Shown one piece after another: positions 2 through 20,025 of a stretch of 22,868 nucleotides of DNA. Source of the stretch: a virus; IMG/VR virus record IMGVR_UViG_3300018428_000205, positions 1 to 22,868 of that record. One strand, 5' to 3'. The notes under the pieces were generated by a model. It ran no database searches. It was not told where the DNA came from and saw only the letters and a program-made list of their open reading frames with translations. The translations under genes were made by a program, and so were the position numbers. Position 1 is the first letter of the stretch, and the number at the start of each line of letters is the position of its first letter.

Positions 2-3000
2 CATTTCTCTTATACCTTGTGCAAAGGTCGCTGGTATAACCATTTCTCCTTTGTGTATTCTTGCGTTCATGTCTTGTGGAACCATCATTGTACCTGTTGC
101 TAAAGGTATGTTGGTACCAAATGCTTCACTGTTACCTATGGCATTGCTTATATCACCCATTTTAAAGTTCAAGAGAGATTGAACTTTTCCTAACCATTCG
201 GCTTCTTTTGCACTATCATCTCTTGTAAAGAAATCGACAATGCCCTCTAATGTTCCTACTATACTATCAATTGCACCATTGTAAATATCTGCAAAACCAC
301 TGTCACCTATGAATGTTAAAAGCTTAGCACCTAACTCACCCAAATCAATTTTGTCAAATAAACCAGAGAAAAATCCAGAAATGCTTTCACCCCAACCCAT
401 AAAGAAATCTTTGATGCTGTTAAATTTGTCTTTGAATGTATTAATCATTTTATCTAATTTACTTTCAAAGTCTAATTTGTCCATTATCTTATCTATAAAT
501 TCTTTAATTCGATTCCAAAAGTTTTTGAAACCATCGCCTATTTTTGTAAAGAAACTTGTAAAGTATCCTTTTGCAGTTTCTAATGCATCATGTAAAGTGG
601 TATGGTTAAAAAAGTTAACAATTTTTTCTATTAGTTTATCTATTGTAGCCATAAATTTACGAATACTTTCAGATACATTGTTATCAAATTGATCAAAGTA
701 AGAAGCTCCTGTTTCAAGTACTGGTTTTAATTTGTTTTCCCAAAGGTATATTATAGGTGCAATAAATAAATCGTACATGTATTTTCCAGATTTTTCTAAC
801 ATCAATCTCAAATTTTCTTTGAATTCTTCGAATGCTTCTTTTGGTCCAATTGTAAACATTCTAACTAAAAAACGAATGGCTGCTGCCAACAAGAATACAG
901 GTGTTAATAAAAAGAATATCGCTTTCCCAAATCCAGAAAGAACTCTGACAAATCCATTTGAACTTTTTGCTCCTTTATCTATTGCTCCAGAAAACCCTGT
1001 AATTACTTCTTTAAATTTTGTAGCTATAAGTGCTGCTGCAACAAATACAGCAATTAATACTAATACTGGTGCAGATAGACCAGCTAAAAATCCTCCAAGA
1101 ACTTTAACTCCAGTTTTTAATTTTAAGAATACTTTAGAAAGTGTAGCTCCTCTACCAGCAAGAATGACTTCTGACTTTGCTGCAGATCTCATTGCTATAC
1201 CTGTTGTTACTGCTGCTGCTGCTGCCCCACCCATTGAAGTAGCTAATCCACCCATTATTACAGTTGTGGCTGTTGTAACAGTTCCTAAGAATACTAACGC
1301 TGCAACTAACATGAAAAATACTGCTATTGCTTTTTTAACCCATTGTGGTTGACCTTTAAACCATTTTCTCATATCCCTGGCTACTGAAGCAAATGCTTTG
1401 AACATAGGAACCAATTCTTTTCCTATTTCTCTTGCCATCATTTTGAATTCATGATTGACAATAGTCATTTGTGCTCCGATTTGTGGTGTAGCATTTTTAA
1501 TATAGTTTAAAGCACCCACTGCACCAGCAGCCATTGCCACATATGCCATTCTCGTTTTGTTTAAAGTGCCACCTAATTTTTTAGCTTCAACCCCTTGATC
1601 TTCAAGAGCCATTGTTATTTCTTGTGATTCAGCTTTTATCTCAGCTTTTCTTCTTTGAAGGGCAGATCCAGCATTATTATTTTTTCCAGAGAATTCTTTT
1701 CCAGCTACAGTTACACTGTCACCTTTTCTTACTCTACCACTTTCTGTTAACCTGGCTTCAGCTTTTTCAAGTTCAATTAACTCTTTTTTATTTTCTCTTA
1801 ATTTTTGATTCTTTGCTTCCATTTCAGCACGTAGTTCTTGTAATGCTTGTTTGTTTTCTCTATACTTTTGTGGATTTAAAGAATCAAAATAACTGTTAGC
1901 AGATTTTTTAGCTATATCAAACCCATCTTTAGCAAGAGACTTTAGTTCTGCTCCAGCTTCTTTCAATATTGTTTTAAGCTTTACTTGTTCTTTTATTGAT
2001 GATGCTAATTCTTCTCTATCTTTTTTACTGGCTTCTATCTTTTCATCAATTAATTTTACCTGTTCTATTTGATCTTTTATATCAATATTTCTTAGTTTAC
2101 TTTGTTCAACAGTTGAAGTGTTAACTTTTTGATTTATATCTTCCAGTTCTCTAAATAAAACAACATTCTCATCTATAAGTTTATTTCTGAAATTAGTTAC
2201 TGAAACCAAATCTTTTTCACTTGATTCTAATGTTTTATTTAATTTTACTTCATTATCTACAAGCTCATGCAATCTTTGTTTTAATTTAATACGTTCTACT
2301 TCATCTCCAGCATGATACAATTTTCCTTCTGCTGCTTCTTGAAGATTCATTTCTTTTAATTGATCCTCAAGTTGTTTAATATCTAATTCAATAGGTATCA
2401 TGAAGTCTTCGGCTGTTTTTACTTTTGTTTCTTGAATTAGTTTTTCTACATCTTTGATTTCTGCATTTAATCTATCTATACTATCATTTATTGCTAATCT
2501 TGGTACAATTTCAAATTCTGATAAATCTTTTTCAACTTTTGCAATTTCTGCATTTAACCTATCTATTTCTTCGTAATCAATCATACCAGTTGTTATTGCA
2601 TTTTTCTCAACATTCAAGATTTGATCTTGAAAACTCTTTATGTAATTTTTTGCCTTGGCTTGTTCTTTAGCAAAATCTACTCTATTCCTAAATACATTTT
2701 TTTGTGCTTCACTCATACCAACATTACTTTCTTCTTTAATTTTTGTTTTTGAAGCAAGGTCTTTTCTAATCTTCCTTCTTTTCTCAAACAATTTCACGAG
2801 TGTTTCTTCTCGACTTAATTGTTTATTATCCATGTTTGCAGCTTTAATTTTTAATGCAAGAAGATTTTCTTCTATTTCCTGTTTTCTTTCATCTATCTTT
2901 CTTTGCTCAAGTCCCTTTTCTACCAGTTTATCTATTTCTTGGTTAATTTTATCAATTTCTTTAGCATTATCAATAAACTCATTTTTTGTTTCTTTTATGG

Positions 3001-3412
3001 TTTCTCTAAGATTATGTGCTTGATCACTGACATTTTTAAATAGTTCTCCACCAGTAGCATATTCTTTATTTATGTTTTCTTGAATTCTTAATAAATTTTT
3101 TAAATTGTTTTCATTTTCTGTTAAACGCATTTGATCTAATCTTAGTTGTTTATATATTTCATTTCCTTTTTCAGCTAATTTTTTAATTTCATCATCTGCA
3201 AGTTTTAGCATTTCTTGTCCTAATTTCTTTCTTTGTCTTTGACTTGATACGCCTTTCATTGCTATTTTTGCATTGCTGTCTATTATGTTACCAAAGGTCT
3301 TACTGTCTTTTAACAAATCATTAATGAAACCTGCAGTTGATGAAAGTCCTTTATTAAGGTCAGATACATCTGCATTGATTTTTATAGTAGCATTAACATT
3401 CTGTTCAGACAT
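2..3412 (-). CDS. Tail tape measure protein (C-terminus beyond left edge)
   Basis: Tape measure proteins set tail length, fill the tail tube, and are ejected ahead of the DNA. I read this frame codon by codon over most of its length and found no stop; it is open for 1137 codons and leaves the window at the left edge, so the end is missing. The start ATG lies 2 nt after the stop of the frameshifted chaperone frame. The first part (to about residue 600) is a long charged, Lys/Glu/Leu-rich coiled coil. It is followed by Ala/Gly/Val-rich hydrophobic segments (about residues 620-840), as in many tape measures that cross membranes. Near the left edge is the motif RIHKGEMVIPATFAQGIRE, typical of tape measure C-termini, so little is probably missing. 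Position directly after the tail chaperones is the canonical one. Several plus-strand frames here are only its shadow. Confidence 0.93.
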   Translation of the reverse strand, partial: MSEQNVNATIKINADVSDLNKGLSSTAGFINDLLKDSKTFGNIIDSNAKIAMKGVSSQRQRKKLGQEMLKLADDEIKKLAEKGNEIYKQLRLDQMRLTENENNLKNLLRIQENINKEYATGGELFKNVSDQAHNLRETIKETKNEFIDNAKEIDKINQEIDKLVEKGLEQRKIDERKQEIEENLLALKIKAANMDNKQLSREETLVKLFEKRRKIRKDLASKTKIKEESNVGMSEAQKNVFRNRVDFAKEQAKAKNYIKSFQDQILNVEKNAITTGMIDYEEIDRLNAEIAKVEKDLSEFEIVPRLAINDSIDRLNAEIKDVEKLIQETKVKTAEDFMIPIELDIKQLEDQLKEMNLQEAAEGKLYHAGDEVERIKLKQRLHELVDNEVKLNKTLESSEKDLVSVTNFRNKLIDENVVLFRELEDINQKVNTSTVEQSKLRNIDIKDQIEQVKLIDEKIEASKKDREELASSIKEQVKLKTILKEAGAELKSLAKDGFDIAKKSANSYFDSLNPQKYRENKQALQELRAEMEAKNQKLRENKKELIELEKAEARLTESGRVRKGDSVTVAGKEFSGKNNNAGSALQRRKAEIKAESQEITMALEDQGVEAKKLGGTLNKTRMAYVAMAAGAVGALNYIKNATPQIGAQMTIVNHEFKMMAREIGKELVPMFKAFASVARDMRKWFKGQPQWVKKAIAVFFMLVAALVFLGTVTTATTVIMGGLATSMGGAAAAAVTTGIAMRSAAKSEVILAGRGATLSKVFLKLKTGVKVLGGFLAGLSAPVLVLIAVFVAAALIATKFKEVITGFSGAIDKGAKSSNGFVRVLSGFGKAIFFLLTPVFLLAAAIRFLVRMFTIGPKEAFEEFKENLRLMLEKSGKYMYDLFIAPIIYLWENKLKPVLETGASYFDQFDNNVSESIRKFMATIDKLIEKIVNFFNHTTLHDALETAKGYFTSFFTKIGDGFKNFWNRIKEFIDKIMDKLDFESKLDKMINTFKDKFNSIKDFFMGWGESISGFFSGLFDKIDLGELGAKLLTFIGDSGFADIYNGAIDSIVGTLEGIVDFFTRDDSAKEAEWLGKVQSLLNFKMGDISNAIGNSEAFGTNIPLATGTMMVPQDMNARIHKGEMVIPATFAQGIREM

Positions 3413-3414
3413 AA

Positions 3415-4112
3415 TTATCTCATCCTGTTTTTGTTTTGAGCCATTTGAGATTTATATTCTGCTTGTTGCTGTTGTTCTTTTTGATAATGACCTTCCTCTT
3501 CCATCATAGATGCAACTAACTCAATTTGTAGTTGAGTGAATTTTTTAGGGATGTCAAATGGATTCATGTTATACCTCTGAGCTATGCGATCATACAGAAC
3601 TAATCTGTAACTCGCATAAAGATCTGTAGTATTACTACTTACAGTTCTTCGGCCTCTAATGGCTGCAAAGTAGTACTGTTTGAAATGATGAACTTTTTTG
3701 AAGCATCACCTCCATCACTACCTACTGCAATTGACATAAACTCAGTGTAAACTTCTCTTCTAATCCTTCTGTCTAATTTATTAAAATAATCCAGGAAGGA
3801 TTTGTATTTCTTCTCATCATACATTGGTGCTTCAATTATGACTTCTTGCATCAAAGAGTAAACTGCTTCTTGAGTTGCTATCAAAGTTTTAATGTCAGAT
3901 GATGAAGGAAGTTCATTTCCTTCCTCATCATATTCTGCATACTTCTCCCCAAGCTCTTGTAATTGCTGAGGATCTTCTATACTTTTGAGAACTTTTAATG
4001 TTTGAAAATCAGTTGGTTGCTGAAATTTAAACAATAAACTAAGTTTCTCATTCCCATTTTCAATGGGTATTCGTATTTCAATATCGTCTTCAAAGATTAT
4101 CGATAGGTCCAT
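3415..4112 (-). CDS. Tail assembly chaperone G-T fusion made by -1 frameshift
   Basis: This is the predicted long product of the chaperone gene. The first 140 codons are those of the 157-residue G protein. At the heptamer A AAA AAG (3699 to 3693, in the correct frame: TCA AAA AAG) a -1 slip continues into a frame open for 92 more residues, giving about 232 residues. The second part begins VHHFKQYYFAAIRG, contains YRLVLYDRIAQRY, and ends with a Gln/Glu/Lys-rich tail. That frame has no ATG until about residue 43 of the T part, so it is unlikely to be translated alone, and it stops 2 nt before the tape measure start. G/GT pairs of this kind, just upstream of the tape measure gene, are known from lambda and many tailed phages. 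The frameshift itself is inferred from sequence. Confidence 0.85.
3639..4112 (-). CDS. Tail assembly chaperone, short (G-like) product
   Basis: This 157-residue acidic protein is the zero-frame product of the chaperone gene. In lambda-type tails the short form coats the tape measure protein before the tube polymerises and is absent from the finished tail. Assignment is by position (after the major tail protein, before the tape measure), by size, and by the slippery site 17 codons before its stop; I recognise no strong family motif. It has a good start: the SD sequence AAAGGAGAT sits about 8 nt before the ATG. Alternative reading: an unrelated small tail protein, but the overlapping frame makes the G-like role much more likely. 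Confidence 0.85.
   Translation of the reverse strand: MDLSIIFEDDIEIRIPIENGNEKLSLLFKFQQPTDFQTLKVLKSIEDPQQLQELGEKYAEYDEEGNELPSSSDIKTLIATQEAVYSLMQEVIIEAPMYDEKKYKSFLDYFNKLDRRIRREVYTEFMSIAVGSDGGDASKKFIISNSTTLQPLEAEEL
3693..3699 (-). promoter_or_regulatory. Slippery heptamer for -1 ribosomal frameshift
   Basis: On the minus strand the sequence is A AAA AAG, aligned to the zero frame exactly as X XXY YYZ, the same heptamer as in E. coli dnaX. Downstream, TACTACTT (3675 to 3668) can pair perfectly with AAGTAGTA (3640 to 3633), an 8-bp stem with a 27-nt loop starting about 17 nt after the heptamer. That is a candidate stimulator, although further away than usual. A second small hairpin, GTAGT-AAT-ACTAC, overlaps its 3' arm. 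Confidence 0.82.
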
Positions 4113-4127
4113 TTTTATTTATCTCCT

Positions 4128-5573
4128 TTAAGTGTAGACAACCCAATCGTATAAATCATCGATTACGGTCATCTCTGGTTGCTCTAAAACGAAAAAGTTC
4201 AAAGCTAACCTAATAGAATTCTCAAAACTTCTTGGCAAACCAAATAGCTTTAAGTTTCTGTAGTGTACGATTAATGCTTGACCATTTTCCAAACCAAATT
4301 GAATGTCAGCATTAACACGACCACCATCTGAATTTTTAACCATTGCTCTCATAGTACCAGAGTTTCTATGAGCAGTTCCAGATGAAGCACTTTCATTAGG
4401 TAGATCTACATTCAATGTTAATGTATTTTCGTGATCACCTTTTAAGAAGTAATCTGCATCTGCATCATTATTGATTGGCCCTCTCTCAAATGTATTGGAG
4501 AAACCCATTTCAATACTGTAAGTATATGGTACCCAATCAGCACCATTTGCAAATGGATCGCTGTCTGGATCTCCAGATATATCCTCTCCAAGACCATCTG
4601 CACTTCCAGATCCATCTGCATCTTGATTAGTTGATAACATAATTTTTACTGATCTGTTAGAAGTATCTTGAGATTCAAATCTGAATATATTTGCGACACC
4701 AGCTCCAACTTTTCTACCAGCTGTACAAGGTACATACATTGAGTTTCTTACAAAATATGTGGATGGTTCAGTAGCACTGAAATCATTAGCTTGAGTTCCA
4801 GTTGTTTTAGCATTGGATGTATTTAAAGTCAAAGCTTGGCCAGTTAGTGAGCATTGCATTAAACCACCTTGAGTGTATGATACACTATAAGCTTCTACAT
4901 GACCACCAGCATATTCTAAACCATTATCTTCTTCAGTAATTCCATAAGCACTGAAATATGGTAAAGATGTTGCTCTTTCTAATGTATGAACAAATCCTGC
5001 TACAGTTGCAGTCCAGGTAGGACTACTACCATCATCTTGAATTGTTGAGCCGACAGCAATACCAGCACCTACAGTTCCATCTACATACAAGAATTTGTTT
5101 GTGCCATCATACTGTACTACATTAACACCTTGATCAGTTGATCCAATATATACATCATCTGCAGCAGCTGGAGTTCCACTGGCTACATCTGAAAGTAACC
5201 AAATTTGTGAGGGATCTCCACTACCGACTGGTGGTTTAATTGTTGATGGGGTAGTTGATGGAGTAGAGTATGCTTTAATACTTCCAAAAGCCATATAGGC
5301 ACTCAACCAATTGGTTGGATGGAAAGTAATATCAAATCCATGATTTGATCCTCCACGATACGCATCTTGTAATGCCATCTCTCTTGAACCATCTACTTCT
5401 AATGGTCCAAATTCATCTCTAAATGTAACATCTACTATCTCTCCGACACTAAATGCAACATATTGGTTCAAAGTAGAAGCTATATCATCGTTAAATGTAG
5501 TATAACTTGTACTTGGATCTTGTAAGCCAAAGTGTATTGACCTACGTGCTGCTGAATAGGGTTGTGCTGCTAT
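4128..5573 (-). CDS. Major tail (tube) protein, apparent ATA start
   Basis: Likely tail tube protein: it lies between the tail terminator and the tail chaperones, and has a beta-rich, Gly/Ser/Thr/Asp-rich composition with low Lys. From the proposed start it is 481 residues, large for a tube protein, which suggests an inserted surface domain (roughly residues 105-200, with Thr/Pro/Ser-rich linkers). The start is odd. The frame is open upstream to a TGA at 5582-5580 and contains no ATG or GTG there; the first common alternative start is a TTG at 5471 with no SD. A strong SD (GAAGGTG) stands 6-7 nt before an ATA at 5573, in a context (AATAAAAATA) nearly identical to that of the next gene's AATAAAAATG. 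I therefore place the start at 5573, read as MAAQPYSAARRS if the base is really ATG. Confidence 0.72.
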   Translation of the reverse strand: MAAQPYSAARRSIHFGLQDPSTSYTTFNDDIASTLNQYVAFSVGEIVDVTFRDEFGPLEVDGSREMALQDAYRGGSNHGFDITFHPTNWLSAYMAFGSIKAYSTPSTTPSTIKPPVGSGDPSQIWLLSDVASGTPAAADDVYIGSTDQGVNVVQYDGTNKFLYVDGTVGAGIAVGSTIQDDGSSPTWTATVAGFVHTLERATSLPYFSAYGITEEDNGLEYAGGHVEAYSVSYTQGGLMQCSLTGQALTLNTSNAKTTGTQANDFSATEPSTYFVRNSMYVPCTAGRKVGAGVANIFRFESQDTSNRSVKIMLSTNQDADGSGSADGLGEDISGDPDSDPFANGADWVPYTYSIEMGFSNTFERGPINNDADADYFLKGDHENTLTLNVDLPNESASSGTAHRNSGTMRAMVKNSDGGRVNADIQFGLENGQALIVHYRNLKLFGLPRSFENSIRLALNFFVLEQPEMTVIDDLYDWVVYT

Positions 5574-8131: not shown

Positions 8132-8971
8132 TTATCTGTTGTATGAAGGAGCAATTAGTTTTTTGAAATAGCTAACTGCTTCTGGTTCTATTGCATGAAG
8201 AATTTTTTCTTCTTTAAATCTATCAGCCATAACTACTAAACCAACAGTTTCAAATCTTCTGTAACTGTATCTATTATATATAGCAGATTCTTCCTCGTTC
8301 AAAGCATTGAACAACAACCAATTTTGAATATACATATTCTTAGGTATATTTTCTTTAGGCGATTTAAGAAAGTCCAGCACTTTAGTATACTCACCAGTCC
8401 TGTCATATATTTCAGTGCTTTCATCTTTTAACAATTGCTGCAACACTCTCAGATCTCTGCTTTGTGCTTTCCATTGGTCAAGTTTGATTTTTGATAATGG
8501 TAGCTTTAATTTATTGATTTCTTTTGCATGTACTCCCATTTTAGTGTCAGATTTTTGTATACTAAATGAATCTCTTATTTCTTGTTTCATTTTCCAATAC
8601 TCATTTGATGTTGCTATTAATCTATAATTCCTTCTTCTTTGTTTTCTTGGTGCACTCTTTATAAGTTCTTCAAGCCATTTTGGGATTATACTATGTTCTA
8701 AATCATCCAAAAGAATTATCAATCTATCTTCATGAACTGTAGTAAAAAGGTAATTTATGTATTTTTTAACATCATCATCAGTGTAGTCCATAGATGAATC
8801 AAACTTTTCTATCTCCATGTTTCTATTTTTTGCCACTCTATATATAGAAGAGGTTTTGCCAGTTCCAGCCAGGCCAACTAACATCAATGGGACACCAATA
8901 TCATCCAAAGCATCATCAACTGCTGTTTCATATGTTTTAGTTAGATTTGCATATATTATATCATCACTCAT
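8132..8971 (-). CDS. RFC large subunit-like AAA+ ATPase
   Basis: A 279-residue AAA+ protein resembling the ATPase part of the archaeal clamp loader large subunit. Visible motifs are Walker A GLAGTGKT (33-40), Walker B LIILLDDLE (84-92) and sensor 1 TSN (121-123). The stretch MEIEKFDSS after Walker A resembles the VIELNAS element of RFC proteins. The SRC arginine-finger motif of small subunits is absent, as expected for a large subunit. It is shorter than cellular archaeal RFC-L and lacks an obvious C-terminal PCNA-binding motif. It is last in the operon that also holds a clear RFC small subunit, which supports a clamp-loader role. Start: ATG overlaps the upstream stop (ATGA) and follows the SD GGGGAG. 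Alternative: another AAA+ replication ATPase, such as an Orc/Cdc6-like loader. Confidence 0.65.
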   Translation of the reverse strand: MSDDIIYANLTKTYETAVDDALDDIGVPLMLVGLAGTGKTSSIYRVAKNRNMEIEKFDSSMDYTDDDVKKYINYLFTTVHEDRLIILLDDLEHSIIPKWLEELIKSAPRKQRRRNYRLIATSNEYWKMKQEIRDSFSIQKSDTKMGVHAKEINKLKLPLSKIKLDQWKAQSRDLRVLQQLLKDESTEIYDRTGEYTKVLDFLKSPKENIPKNMYIQNWLLFNALNEEESAIYNRYSYRRFETVGLVVMADRFKEEKILHAIEPEAVSYFKKLIAPSYNR

Positions 8972-9644: not shown

Positions 9645-10481
9645 TCACCACATTTGTAAAACCAAATTATCTTCTTTATGACATTTCAAATTGTATTGAC
9701 AAATATCACAATTAGATGATCTATTTTTAGGAAAGTATTTGTTATTTTGAATCCATTTGATGTGTCTTGTTAATTTATCTTTGATTAACATTTCGCCTTT
9801 TTCTGCATCTGGATTAATAACAACTTCTTCTTTTGCATCAACAAAATATAAGCTAACTCCATCAAACTCATAGCCATGTGCGTAAAAAAGATATGCATAT
9901 TGAGAAACTTGTTCTTCATATGATTTCATTTTATAGCTCCTGGGCTTACCAGTTTTCCAATCAATAACTTTTATTTTGTTATCTTTCAAATCTCTACCAT
10001 AATAATCAATCTTACCTCTAAAACCAATAAAATTTACATTAGGGTAATGTTTGAGAAATGGATCTAAATAACCTTCATCAAACCAATCATCTGGTGCTTT
10101 CACACCTAATTCAATTTCACAAGATTGTTTTGCATTTTCTAAGTTAACAAACCTGGGTATCAAACCATTTTCAACAAAATTCATAATACTGTACTTTGAC
10201 AATTGTTGATTTATTTTATCTGACTTAGGATTTTTAGCTAAGTATTCGTAAATCCTATTCTTTCTCCAATCTTCTCTACTTGGTTCCATGCAATATTCTA
10301 AAAGATTGTGAACAAAAGTACCATATTGAAATGGAAAAAATTCCAAATCATGTGGTTCTAAATTAGTAAACTTGCTATATTCCCATTGCCTTTTACAACC
10401 ATCAAATTGATCTGATTGCGAAGAGGAAAAGAAATAGCCAGTCTTATCATAGTAAGATGTTGGCTTCATTTGGATTTGCAT
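9645..10481 (-). CDS. Cas4/RecB-like PD-(D/E)XK nuclease with Fe-S cysteines
   Basis: A 278-residue DNA exonuclease of the RecB/Cas4 type. The catalytic motifs are in order: GTFVHNLLE with H58, D159 in FRGKIDYYG, D174-W-K176 in VIDWKTGK, and the QxxxY motif at Q194. One cysteine near the N-terminus (C29 in CKRQW) plus C258, C261 and C267 (CDICQYNLKC) give the four-cysteine pattern that holds a 4Fe-4S cluster in Cas4, AddB and related nucleases. There are no CRISPR repeats or other cas genes here, so a role in viral replication, recombination or end processing is more likely than spacer acquisition. The gene start overlaps the RFC small subunit end by 35 nt. A second ATG 4 codons downstream is possible. 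Confidence 0.85.
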   Translation of the reverse strand: MQIQMKPTSYYDKTGYFFSSSQSDQFDGCKRQWEYSKFTNLEPHDLEFFPFQYGTFVHNLLEYCMEPSREDWRKNRIYEYLAKNPKSDKINQQLSKYSIMNFVENGLIPRFVNLENAKQSCEIELGVKAPDDWFDEGYLDPFLKHYPNVNFIGFRGKIDYYGRDLKDNKIKVIDWKTGKPRSYKMKSYEEQVSQYAYLFYAHGYEFDGVSLYFVDAKEEVVINPDAEKGEMLIKDKLTRHIKWIQNNKYFPKNRSSNCDICQYNLKCHKEDNLVLQMW

Positions 10482-11490
10482 GATTGCCTACACACTCCGT
10501 TATTTTAGATAGCAAAAAGCCACTTAACATTCCTGTTATTTGTATAACTGTTGAACCAGATTTGTATAAATTCATATCAGTATCTTTCATTATCATCATA
10601 CATCTAAGATAAACATTTTTACATAAATATTCTTCTTTGAATTGTTTGTATAACCAACTACTTACCAATTTGAAAAAATCATTAATCCTCATCTTTTCAT
10701 CTTGAAATATAATATTATTGACATCTACGTTAATTGCATCAACAGATTGTTTGAAAACAATAGAATCTAAAAGTGCATCAATCTTATCATCATCAATAAA
10801 ATTTTGAGGTTGGTAATAATTCAAATTAATTTCAGAACCATTAACTGCTTCTTGAACACAATCAATTGCTTGTCTCATATCTCCTTTGGATCTTTCAATT
10901 ATACTTTTGATGTAATTTACTTCCTCTTCTGTTTTAACAACAACATTTTCTGCTTTGAGTATTTCTATTATTCTTGATTGAATGTGTTTAGAAGAAAGTC
11001 TTTGTACCTGGAATGACCTGCACCTGGACTTGATTGCATCCTCAATTCTATCATAATGATTACAAGTAAAGATAAACATTTTATTTCTTTTTTTAGCCTC
11101 TGGTAGTATTGCTCTCAGAGCATTTTGTGCTTCTCTGGTCATCATATCTGCTTCATCTAAAATGAAAACAGATGCCCCTCTGGACTGAACTAAAATCATT
11201 ATTTCATTTCTAATAAAATTAATACCTCTGTCATCCGATGCATTGTATTGTCTTATAGTAGATTCATCATCAAACCTATTTATAAATATATTCGCAATCA
11301 GTTTTGCAAGTAATGTTTTCCCACTACCACTCTCTCCATGTAAAATGTAGTGAGCAATTTGGTTGTCCCCAATAGAATCAACAATCTTCTGTTTAACAAG
11401 ATCGTGACCTATCACATCTTCGATTGTGTTTGGTTCGTGTTTATCGGCCCAAGACACTGCTTGTATTGTTTCTAATGCATTGAAACTCAT
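10447..11490 (-). CDS. rfcS: Replication factor C small subunit (clamp loader)
   Basis: A 347-residue AAA+ clamp loader subunit; it would load a PCNA-type ring on primed DNA. Features in order: WADKHEPNTIEDVIGH (14-29), matching the RFC N-terminal box; Walker A GESGSGKT (52-59); YNASDDRGINFIR (82-94), the RFC signature; Walker B VFILDEAD (108-115); sensor 1 TCN (142-144); the SRC arginine finger (155-157); and sensor 2 region KGDMRQAID. The length matches cellular archaeal RFC-S (about 320-350). Its message begins at a TATA box about 26 nt before the ATG, and it leads an operon of nuclease, unknown, winged-helix and RFC-L-like genes. The C-terminal collar region is more diverged than the ATPase domain. 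Confidence 0.95.
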   Translation of the reverse strand: MSFNALETIQAVSWADKHEPNTIEDVIGHDLVKQKIVDSIGDNQIAHYILHGESGSGKTLLAKLIANIFINRFDDESTIRQYNASDDRGINFIRNEIMILVQSRGASVFILDEADMMTREAQNALRAILPEAKKRNKMFIFTCNHYDRIEDAIKSRCRSFQVQRLSSKHIQSRIIEILKAENVVVKTEEEVNYIKSIIERSKGDMRQAIDCVQEAVNGSEINLNYYQPQNFIDDDKIDALLDSIVFKQSVDAINVDVNNIIFQDEKMRINDFFKLVSSWLYKQFKEEYLCKNVYLRCMMIMKDTDMNLYKSGSTVIQITGMLSGFLLSKITECVGNHANPNEANILL

Positions 11491-13272: not shown

Positions 13273-13833
13273 ATGTCTGAAAGAGCTAAAATATACAAAG
13301 TTGTTCTGTTAGGTGATGGTGCAGTGGGCAAAACATCACTTCGAAAAAGATTCTTAGGTCAAGGTTATAGTAAATCATATTCAATGACAATTGGTGCAGA
13401 TTTCGGAGTTAAAAGAATTGGAATTAAAAGAAAGTCATATGTCATTCAAATATGGGACATTGCAGGTCAAGATCGTTTTTCATCTATAAGAGATATGTAT
13501 CTTAAAAATGCAGATGGTGCTTTAGTGTTGTTTGATATATCCAGGCCACTATCTTTTGAGAACATTCCTAATTGGGTAAAAGATTTATCTGAATCTAATA
13601 ATAACAATTCTATACCTTTGGTCTTAATAGGAAATAAAGAGGATCTTAGAAAAGAAGATAGTATTTTCATATCAAAGGAACAAGCAGAGGAATATGCAGA
13701 AAGTTTAACTGATTGGGGAAACTATGACATAGAATATATAGAAACATCAGCTAAAACTGGAGCAAATGTTGAAGAAGCATTTAAGTCATTAATCTTAAAG
13801 ATAGATAAACTAAAAAACAAAAAAAACATTTGA
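13273..13833 (+). CDS. Rab/Ras-like small GTPase
   Basis: A complete 186-residue small GTPase. All five G motifs are present: G1 GDGAVGKT (14-21), switch I threonine T39 in SMTIGADFG, G3 WDIAGQDRF (61-69) with the catalytic Gln at 66, G4 NKED (121-124), and G5 TSAK (158-161). Switch I (TIGADF) and the WDxAGQxRF block are most like the Rab branch of the Ras superfamily. It is expected to switch between GTP and GDP states and bind effectors. There is no C-terminal cysteine motif for prenylation (it ends KNKKNI) and no N-terminal glycine or TM anchor, so it is predicted to be soluble. Such GTPases are abundant in eukaryotes and Asgard archaea, so the gene was probably taken from a host. All key residues are intact, arguing that it is active. 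Confidence 0.93.
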   Translation: MSERAKIYKVVLLGDGAVGKTSLRKRFLGQGYSKSYSMTIGADFGVKRIGIKRKSYVIQIWDIAGQDRFSSIRDMYLKNADGALVLFDISRPLSFENIPNWVKDLSESNNNNSIPLVLIGNKEDLRKEDSIFISKEQAEEYAESLTDWGNYDIEYIETSAKTGANVEEAFKSLILKIDKLKNKKNI

Positions 13834-15958: not shown

Positions 15959-16060
15959 ATGTTTAAGAACCCCAAATTAGTTTTAGCAACTGTTATTATG
16001 CTTGGTATTGCATTTTTAATTGGTAACTTAATAAGTTTCATAGGAGATGCAATTCAATGA
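15959..16060 (+). CDS. 33-residue single-TM peptide
   Basis: A small gene that fits tightly between its neighbours: its ATG is 3 nt after the preceding stop and its TGA overlaps the next ATG (ATGA). The product MFKNPKLVLATVIMLGIAFL... has one hydrophobic span (about residues 7-27) with a basic N-terminus, so it is a predicted membrane peptide. Function unknown. The precise coupling at both ends is the main evidence that it is a real gene. Confidence 0.6.
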   Translation: MFKNPKLVLATVIMLGIAFLIGNLISFIGDAIQ

Positions 16061-16272
16061 GCTTTAGTTCTAATAATATCTATGATACTCACGTATCAGT
16101 TCCAATGAAAAAATGTGGGAGATGTGGGTATTGGATTGCTCCTTATGAACAACAAGTAAAATGTTCAATTTGTACAAAATTATGTCACAGAAGATGTTTT
16201 AAAGAACATAGATGTGAAGCACCAAAACCAAATCATCCTGCATTGAAGTATGCAAGAAATTTAGGTATATAA
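16057..16272 (+). CDS. Small zinc-binding protein (cross-brace or treble-clef type)
   Basis: 71 residues with nine potential metal ligands: C20, C23, C36, C39, C43, H44, C47, H51 and C53, spaced C-x2-C-x12-C-x2-C-x3-C-H-x2-C-x3-H-x-C. This density suits two zinc ions in an interleaved PHD/RING-like or B-box-like fold rather than one simple finger. A basic patch (KLCHRRCFKEHRC) could bind nucleic acid or protein. It overlaps the 33-residue gene and has an SD (GGAG) about 10 nt before its ATG. The next gene has its own promoter. Confidence 0.65.
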   Translation: MSFSSNNIYDTHVSVPMKKCGRCGYWIAPYEQQVKCSICTKLCHRRCFKEHRCEAPKPNHPALKYARNLGI

Positions 16273-18560: not shown

Positions 18561-19343
18561 ATGAGTAGTTCTGACAATGTTTATGGTAAGTTAATTGAAA
18601 AACTTACACAAAATCAAATAGAAATGAGTAAGTTATCTAAAGAAAATTATTCATTAATTCAAAACATCAATTCAAAATTAGAAGCAATTGATTTAAATTT
18701 AAATGAAAATACAGATATGATTGGATCAACAAACAATTTATTGGAAGAATTCAAAAATATTATCAAAGAATTTTCAATTTACGCAACTAACAGAGAAGAA
18801 CATGATAAACATCTTTCATCTTCGATGGAACTTTTAGCAAGTACCTGGAAAGAAAGTTTAGCAATGTTTGGAGAAACAAAAGAAATTATAGAAAAAATTT
18901 ATGATTTTTCATCAGCAGTTACTGATGAAAATTTAGCTCTGTTAAAGAAAACAAAAGGTAACATTATTCCACAATTGCCTTTGATACAGGAAAGATTTTC
19001 CCTTGGCTTGATTGAATTATATTCTAAATTTAGTTATGGATTTACTAATCAATTCATTTTGAGTTTGATTACAAATGACTTTGCATCGTTATCAGCTAAC
19101 GATCAAAAAAATATGCCACAATACAAAGAATTTGAAGAGAGGCATTTGTGGTATGTTGAACAGGTAGAAAAATATGGAGTGGATTTAGGCTTGACTGATT
19201 TCGCAAAAACATTAGCAAAATTCTTTCATATCATATACTTATGTTCAATAGAGGGAGTAGAGTATGCTTCCAACAAATTTTTTGGTAATTATTTATCAGA
19301 ACTTAGTAAGTTTGATAAGATGATATATCAAGATTATGAGTAG
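18561..19343 (+). CDS. Coiled-coil protein, unknown function
   Basis: 260 residues. Residues 1-75 form a polar coiled coil (KLIEKLTQNQIEMSKLSKEN onward). The rest is mostly helical, with aromatic-rich helices such as LIELYSKFSYGFTNQF and FAKTLAKFFHIIYLCSIEGV. No TM span is certain and no enzyme motif is visible. Its last 8 nt overlap the next gene, which encodes a membrane protein with a similar N-terminal start (MSSSDN versus MSSDN), so the two products probably act together. It lies between replication-type genes and the capsid genes. Confidence 0.6.
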   Translation: MSSSDNVYGKLIEKLTQNQIEMSKLSKENYSLIQNINSKLEAIDLNLNENTDMIGSTNNLLEEFKNIIKEFSIYATNREEHDKHLSSSMELLASTWKESLAMFGETKEIIEKIYDFSSAVTDENLALLKKTKGNIIPQLPLIQERFSLGLIELYSKFSYGFTNQFILSLITNDFASLSANDQKNMPQYKEFEERHLWYVEQVEKYGVDLGLTDFAKTLAKFFHIIYLCSIEGVEYASNKFFGNYLSELSKFDKMIYQDYE

Positions 19344-20025
19344 TGATAATATGAAGTTGTCGAGAAAAAAAGTTATAGAAGATCAATTAGATGAAGTAGC
19401 AGAAATTGCTAAAGGTACACCATTTGCAAAATCATTACAAGTTGCAAATATAATTAAATTTGCTAAGCTTTTGGTTTTAGAACCAATTTTAGGTTTAGCT
19501 ATGGCTGGTGTTTTGTTTGGTGCTTATGAATATCAAAATGATGTAAATAATGAAAGAGGACAATATTTTATGCTTTTTGCATCAATATTCTTTTTCTTTA
19601 TATTAGTAGTAGTTACAATAAGAATTATACTTATAGCAAAGTATGAACACAAACATGAACTGGCCAAAGACAAATTAAGTCTGTGGAAAGAAGTAGTTTA
19701 TTCACAAGAATCTATGAGAAATGGATGGATTAACAATTGGGGTGAAATGCTCAAAAAGAAAATAGAAAACTCTTATGCTTTGAATGAAATGATTTTAAAA
19801 GCTGATATTGATAACGATACAAAGATAAGATTAGTAAAAGAAACTAATCAATATATCAAAGACACAGAAGATGAATTCGTAGAGTTATGGAAACACATTG
19901 ATAGTGATATTGAAGAATTTCAGATAAGTACAAGTAAACCATTACCAAAAGTAGAAATGAAACAGTTAGATAAATTACAAGATCTTTACAGGCAGTTAGA
20001 TGAAGTAACTGGTTCTAAAGAATAA
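19336..20025 (+). CDS. Membrane protein with two TM segments and coiled coil
   Basis: 229 residues. Two hydrophobic spans, about 46-65 (LVLEPILGLAMAGVLFGAYE) and 78-101 (ending LVVVTIRIILIAKY), form a hairpin. A charged helical C-terminal half follows and is probably cytoplasmic. The gene overlaps the preceding coiled-coil gene by 8 nt, indicating coupling. Possible roles are anchoring a viral complex to the host membrane, superinfection exclusion or lysis; none can be chosen from sequence. Confidence 0.6.
   Translation: MSSDNMKLSRKKVIEDQLDEVAEIAKGTPFAKSLQVANIIKFAKLLVLEPILGLAMAGVLFGAYEYQNDVNNERGQYFMLFASIFFFFILVVVTIRIILIAKYEHKHELAKDKLSLWKEVVYSQESMRNGWINNWGEMLKKKIENSYALNEMILKADIDNDTKIRLVKETNQYIKDTEDEFVELWKHIDSDIEEFQISTSKPLPKVEMKQLDKLQDLYRQLDEVTGSKE

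Follow-up and report, generated by a model that had tools for sequence, protein, structure and literature searches.

Frameshifting in the G/G-T gene has already been reported for several archaeal viruses (PMC5009743, PMC8211752), and the -1 frameshifts of the haloviruses HCTV-1, HCTV-2, HCTV-5 and HVTV-1 are annotated as joins. Among cellular genes, a -1 frameshift has been demonstrated experimentally in fucA1 of Saccharolobus solfataricus, at the A-rich heptamer A_AAA_AAT, and a review of archaeal recoding counts only one demonstrated cellular -1 case (PMC8211752). In Escherichia coli, dnaX combines A_AAA_AAG with an internal Shine-Dalgarno (SD) sequence as stimulator; such SD stimulators, which are prokaryotic and optional, lie 9-14 nt upstream of the shift site (PMC5009743). 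Here we examine a G/G-T type gene on the minus strand of a viral DNA of 22,868 nucleotides (IMG/VR record IMGVR_UViG_3300018428_000205, positions 1 to 22,868; the whole stretch is referred to as the window). An initial annotation, made from the sequence alone, had proposed a programmed -1 frameshift in the tail chaperone gene of an archaeal virus and had described frameshifting as less documented in such viruses. Because it has been reported in the G/G-T gene of several of them, the case is less unusual than that wording implied. A real programmed -1 frameshift is the best explanation of the locus (probability about 0.92), and the most interesting feature of the cassette is its SD-driven design. 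The virus, divergent and AT-rich, would thus join the few archaeal-type viruses known for G/G-T frameshifting.

Anatomy of the shift site

The coordinates of all features are collected in Table 1. The zero-frame gene (G) begins with an ATG preceded by the SD sequence AAAGGAGAT, and the heptamer A_AAA_AAG, read in the zero frame as TCA AAA AAG, sits in X_XXY_YYZ phase within the overlap of G and the -1 frame (T), with 17 sense codons remaining before the G stop. The -1 frame is open from 3705, directly after a TGA, to a stop ending at 3415. It overlaps G, has the slippery site ahead of it and no start codon of its own near its beginning. A shift at the heptamer would join 140 residues of G to the 92 encoded by T, giving a predicted G-T fusion of 232 amino acids with the junction K140-V141, and 2 nt separate the G-T stop from the ATG (3412) of the tape measure gene directly downstream. 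The lengths, the phasing, the lack of a nearby start, the spacing and the junction all agree with what the initial annotation had claimed. Ordinary open reading frame (ORF) calling would miss the 92-codon T part.

Table 1. Features of the frameshift cassette and of the flanking tail genes (window coordinates)
Feature	Position	Strand	Remarks
G-like ORF, zero-frame product	3639..4112	-	157 aa; tail assembly chaperone by position, without family match
Internal Shine-Dalgarno GGAGGTGAT	3705..3713	-	GGAGG ends 9 nt 5' of the heptamer
Slippery heptamer A_AAA_AAG	3693..3699	-	phase correct
T-like -1 frame	3415..3693	-	92 codons + stop; C-terminal part of the predicted G-T fusion
8-bp perfect stem TACTACTT (3675-3668) / AAGTAGTA (3640-3633)	3633..3675	-	27-nt loop; possible weak stimulator
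First ATG of the -1 frame	3565..3567	-	codon 43; GAGGT in front; rival internal start
Tail tape measure protein gene	2..3412	-	cut by contig end; PHROG 1272, E 9e-16
Probable major tail protein	4128..5471	-	447 aa, TTG start; by position, no homologue found

The internal SD, which the initial annotation had overlooked, is the best new evidence that the frameshift is programmed. Its spacing falls within the range known for SD stimulators, and its anti-SD duplex of -16.7 kcal/mol is the strongest among 21,203 coding 12-mers in the window, the runner-up site reaching -13.4. These energies were computed against the conserved 16S rRNA 3' end, which we take to be GAUCACCUCCU and which may not be that of the host. 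The window has no other GGAGGTG on either strand, and GGAGGT is absent from all 17 other Gly-Gly pairs, though glycine is encoded mainly by GGA and GGT. With no T-frame start codon nearby, GGAGGTGAT is not a start signal for T. An in-phase A_AAA_AAG occurs once in the 7,085 codons of the window, where 2.2-2.4 copies are expected from codon usage and synonymous shuffling, so that the single copy is unremarkable by itself; its coincidence with the strongest SD is what is remarkable. A rough calculation puts the probability that the window's strongest SD falls within eight spacings of the heptamer at 8/21,203, or about 4e-4, and the coincidence in this window amounts to 0.05% if an exact GGAGG at four allowed spacings is counted and to 0.1% by energy. 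Given a perfect internal SD 9 nt upstream, programming is much more likely than accident.

The open frame itself is also uncommon, as its 96 codons were kept in 15 of 20,000 dinucleotide shuffles. Among the frames of the region it is the only one to score as coding, with +10.2 bits overall where the other two sense frames score -23 to -27, and the signal is concentrated in its second half. The 8-bp perfect stem to which the initial annotation had pointed does exist and may contribute, but it is probably not the main stimulator. It is rich in A/U, starts 17 nt 3' of the heptamer, although structures at -1 sites are expected 5-9 nt downstream, and is missing from the minimum-energy fold, which makes the 3' structure weak. 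Such a stem is present in 2.6% of shuffles, and the z-score of the regional minimum free energy is about -1.6 to -2.4.

What the sequence shows is the anatomy of the site, its rarity and the gene order; that ribosomes slip here, how often they do so and what each product does are inferred. Most ribosomes would stop at 3639 and release the G protein, while a minority would slip back one base at A_AAA_AAG, where tRNA-Lys would re-pair on AAA AAA, and would continue in the -1 frame to produce G-T. The slip would be aided by pairing of the 16S rRNA 3' end with GGAGGTGAT, as it is in the dnaX gene of E. coli. If phage lambda is a guide, G would coat the tape measure protein and a few G-T molecules would recruit the major tail subunit, and the slip would therefore set the ratio of G to G-T. 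A chaperone pair of this type is expected to bind the tape measure through G and the tail tube through T, with neither protein present in virions.

Comparison with described frameshifts

The closest architectural counterparts are found in HCTV-5, HVTV-1 and HCTV-2, which have the order tail tube, G, G-T, tape measure. The present locus shares this layout, with a probable tail gene in the upstream position, and the phase of the heptamer. In these three viruses G is 138-158 aa long, the heptamer lies 0-9 codons before the G stop, and the gap to the tape measure gene is 1-3 nt. HCTV-1 shares the frameshift, with a G of 189 aa and a heptamer 9 codons before the stop, but its tape measure gene is 931 nt away, with two further genes between. 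A GGAGG is also present in HCTV-5 and HVTV-1 (10 nt before G_GGA_AAG) and in HHTV-2 (10 nt before G_GAA_AAC), and in HCTV-1 a GGGGAG is located 8 nt before the shift site. No internal SD was found in HCTV-2, so the feature is not universal. The genomes concerned are GC-rich, and each of these coincidences, taken singly, is modest: 1-2% when an exact GGAGG is counted at the four allowed spacings, and about 11% for HCTV-5 by energy. Compared with HVTV-1, HCTV-5, HCTV-1 and HCTV-2, the present virus differs in its A_AAA_AAG heptamer, its much stronger SD and its AT-rich genome, and shows no detectable similarity to their T sequences and no match to G.

A GGAGG 9-10 nt before the shift region is thus present in this virus, in HVTV-1/HCTV-5 and in HHTV-2. 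We put at even odds the broader proposition that archaeal ribosomes use the 16S anti-SD for -1 frameshifting in a dnaX-like cassette, in an arrangement common to several archaeal tailed virus lineages. The compact pairing of an internal SD with A_AAA_AAG makes the locus well suited to ask whether SD pairing stimulates archaeal frameshifting. In HHTV-2 (L135, 11010-11110), the annotation lists G and T separately and gives T its own start, yet the T frame extends back into G, and upstream of the annotated HHTV-2 T start it can be aligned with the T of HCTV-2. On these grounds, and with GGAGG 10 nt before G_GAA_AAC, HHTV-2 probably frameshifts as well.

The E. coli dnaX cassette has the identical heptamer and an internal SD at the right spacing, as here, but belongs to an unrelated gene with an unrelated purpose, and its 3' stem is strong whereas the one here is weak and distant. 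Phage lambda G/G-T uses a different heptamer and, as far as we are aware, has no known SD stimulator. Its architecture and presumed role are the same as here (PMC5009743), with no homology found. In S. solfataricus, fucA1 shares an A-rich heptamer with this locus, but it is a cellular gene, for which a stem-loop and rare codons have been described as stimulators.

Homologue searches and rival explanations

No homologue of G or T was found in Pfam, PHROGs, NCBIfam, 50,697 phage records or the scanned viral contigs, and a tblastn search of the phage records with G, T, G-T, the tail protein and the tape measure protein gave no match. Queries of viral contigs with G, T, the tail protein, the terminase, the major capsid protein (MCP) and the helicase returned a sole relative, the contig L002, whose capsid protein is 95% identical and which covers head genes only, leaving out the tail genes. 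Scans of genome contigs with the MCP and a small GTPase found nothing, and searches with degenerate Rab and terminase motifs returned unrelated phages only; the Rab result means little because the motif as typed missed the common WDTAGQ form. Comparison of T with the halovirus T domains, pairwise and by profile, was not significant. An NP..IP..F resemblance of T to HCTV-1 (p 0.07) was likewise not significant, and a match of T to PHROG 1847 (E 0.009, function unknown) was not used, as it was lost with the full G-T. The structure model of G was unusable (predicted local distance difference test, pLDDT, 40). For T, the single-sequence prediction is helical, with a mean pLDDT of 75 and about 90 over residues 31-60, and fold searches with it gave no significant match. 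With no sequence homologue found, gene order is the basis for calling it a tail chaperone. Tail assembly chaperone genes are known for low similarity between phages (PMC5009743), so family similarity was not taken as a necessary feature and the assignment was made on architecture. Position, phase, overlap and the tight abutment with the tape measure gene all accord with a tail assembly chaperone of the G/G-T type, in support of the phage-like arrangement originally suggested.

Several observations weigh against a programmed frameshift. Codon usage is indifferent over T codons 18-42 (-1.5 bits for 25 non-overlapping codons), so that most of the coding signal of T comes from the part beyond ATG 3567. 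The shift site is a homopolymer known from a single assembly, and the structure on its 3' side is weak. The collections searched contain no homologue of G or T, and a profile of the halovirus T domains fails to recognise this T.

The first two of these points bear on rival explanations. If T were made separately from ATG 3567, a 50-aa protein unfused to G would result. We retain such internal initiation as a minor rival, because T codon usage ahead of 3567 is indifferent and an SD-like GAGGT precedes the ATG; its anti-SD energy of -7.2 kcal/mol is like that of real starts in the window, and the strong coding signal of the -1 frame begins there (+15.7 bits). It nevertheless appears improbable. 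The frame stays open for 46 codons further upstream, nearly to the heptamer, as happens in 1.7% of shuffles. A confidently modelled pair of T helices (residues 22-41 and 45 onward) straddles the ATG, which argues for the longer T. A separate T would also leave the unique A_AAA_AAG and the top-ranked SD in front of it unexplained.

Less probable still, indeed very unlikely, is that one fused ORF has been split in the A6 run, whether by an error of sequencing or assembly or by a genuine inactivating indel. A homopolymer seen in one contig is where such a break could arise, but this break falls exactly where tail chaperones shift frame, in a run of only six A that belongs to a heptamer in perfect phase, with an SD at the correct spacing. 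Both the 17 codons left in the zero frame and the close spacing to the tape measure gene match what G/G-T genes would show. Slippage of RNA polymerase rather than of the ribosome, yielding a fused message, is the least credible of the three, since, although the run is A-rich, six A's are short for transcriptional slippage and a phased heptamer with an internal SD is a ribosomal signal.

Neighbouring genes and type of virus

The 447-aa gene upstream of G occupies the position of a major tail protein. The window also encodes a terminase, a Peptidase_S78 prohead protease, an HK97-type capsid protein, a head-tail adaptor, an RFC small subunit, a second clamp-loader-like AAA protein, a PD-(D/E)XK nuclease and a DUF3987 protein. 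The MCP falls in PHROG 25898 (E 3e-10) together with those of the haloarchaeal viruses HCTV-2 and HHTV-2, and this shared capsid family supports the description as an archaeal virus. Among the matches listed, the RFC small subunit has its lowest E to HCTV-5; the terminase is similar to that of PhiCh1, yet also to those of Bacteroides phages. Judged by its genes, the virus is best described as an archaeal-type member of the Caudoviricetes; the archaeal assignment of the initial annotation is in this sense supported, not proven.

Also encoded is a Rab/Ras-family small GTPase of 186 aa (13273-13833, plus strand; PF00071, E 1e-49), whose best solved structure is a Thorarchaeota Rab (E 2e-37) and which has no counterpart among the 50,697 phage records. 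The presence of a Rab of eukaryotic type in a tailed virus could indicate that the host is an Asgard archaeon or something similar, although this is not proven. A 71-aa Cys/His-rich protein (16057-16272, plus strand) shows a weak C1/zinc-binding likeness that does not reach the cut-off (PF00130, E 3e-4). Of the two clamp-loader-like AAA proteins (8132-8971 and 10447-11490, both minus strand), one is the RFC small subunit, and the shorter, diverged one could be its partner. Finally, two adjacent unknown proteins, coiled-coil-like and membrane, are encoded at 18561-20025 (plus strand) just before the protease and capsid genes, and the pair is kept in L002 (2078-3545) with 70% and 83% identity.
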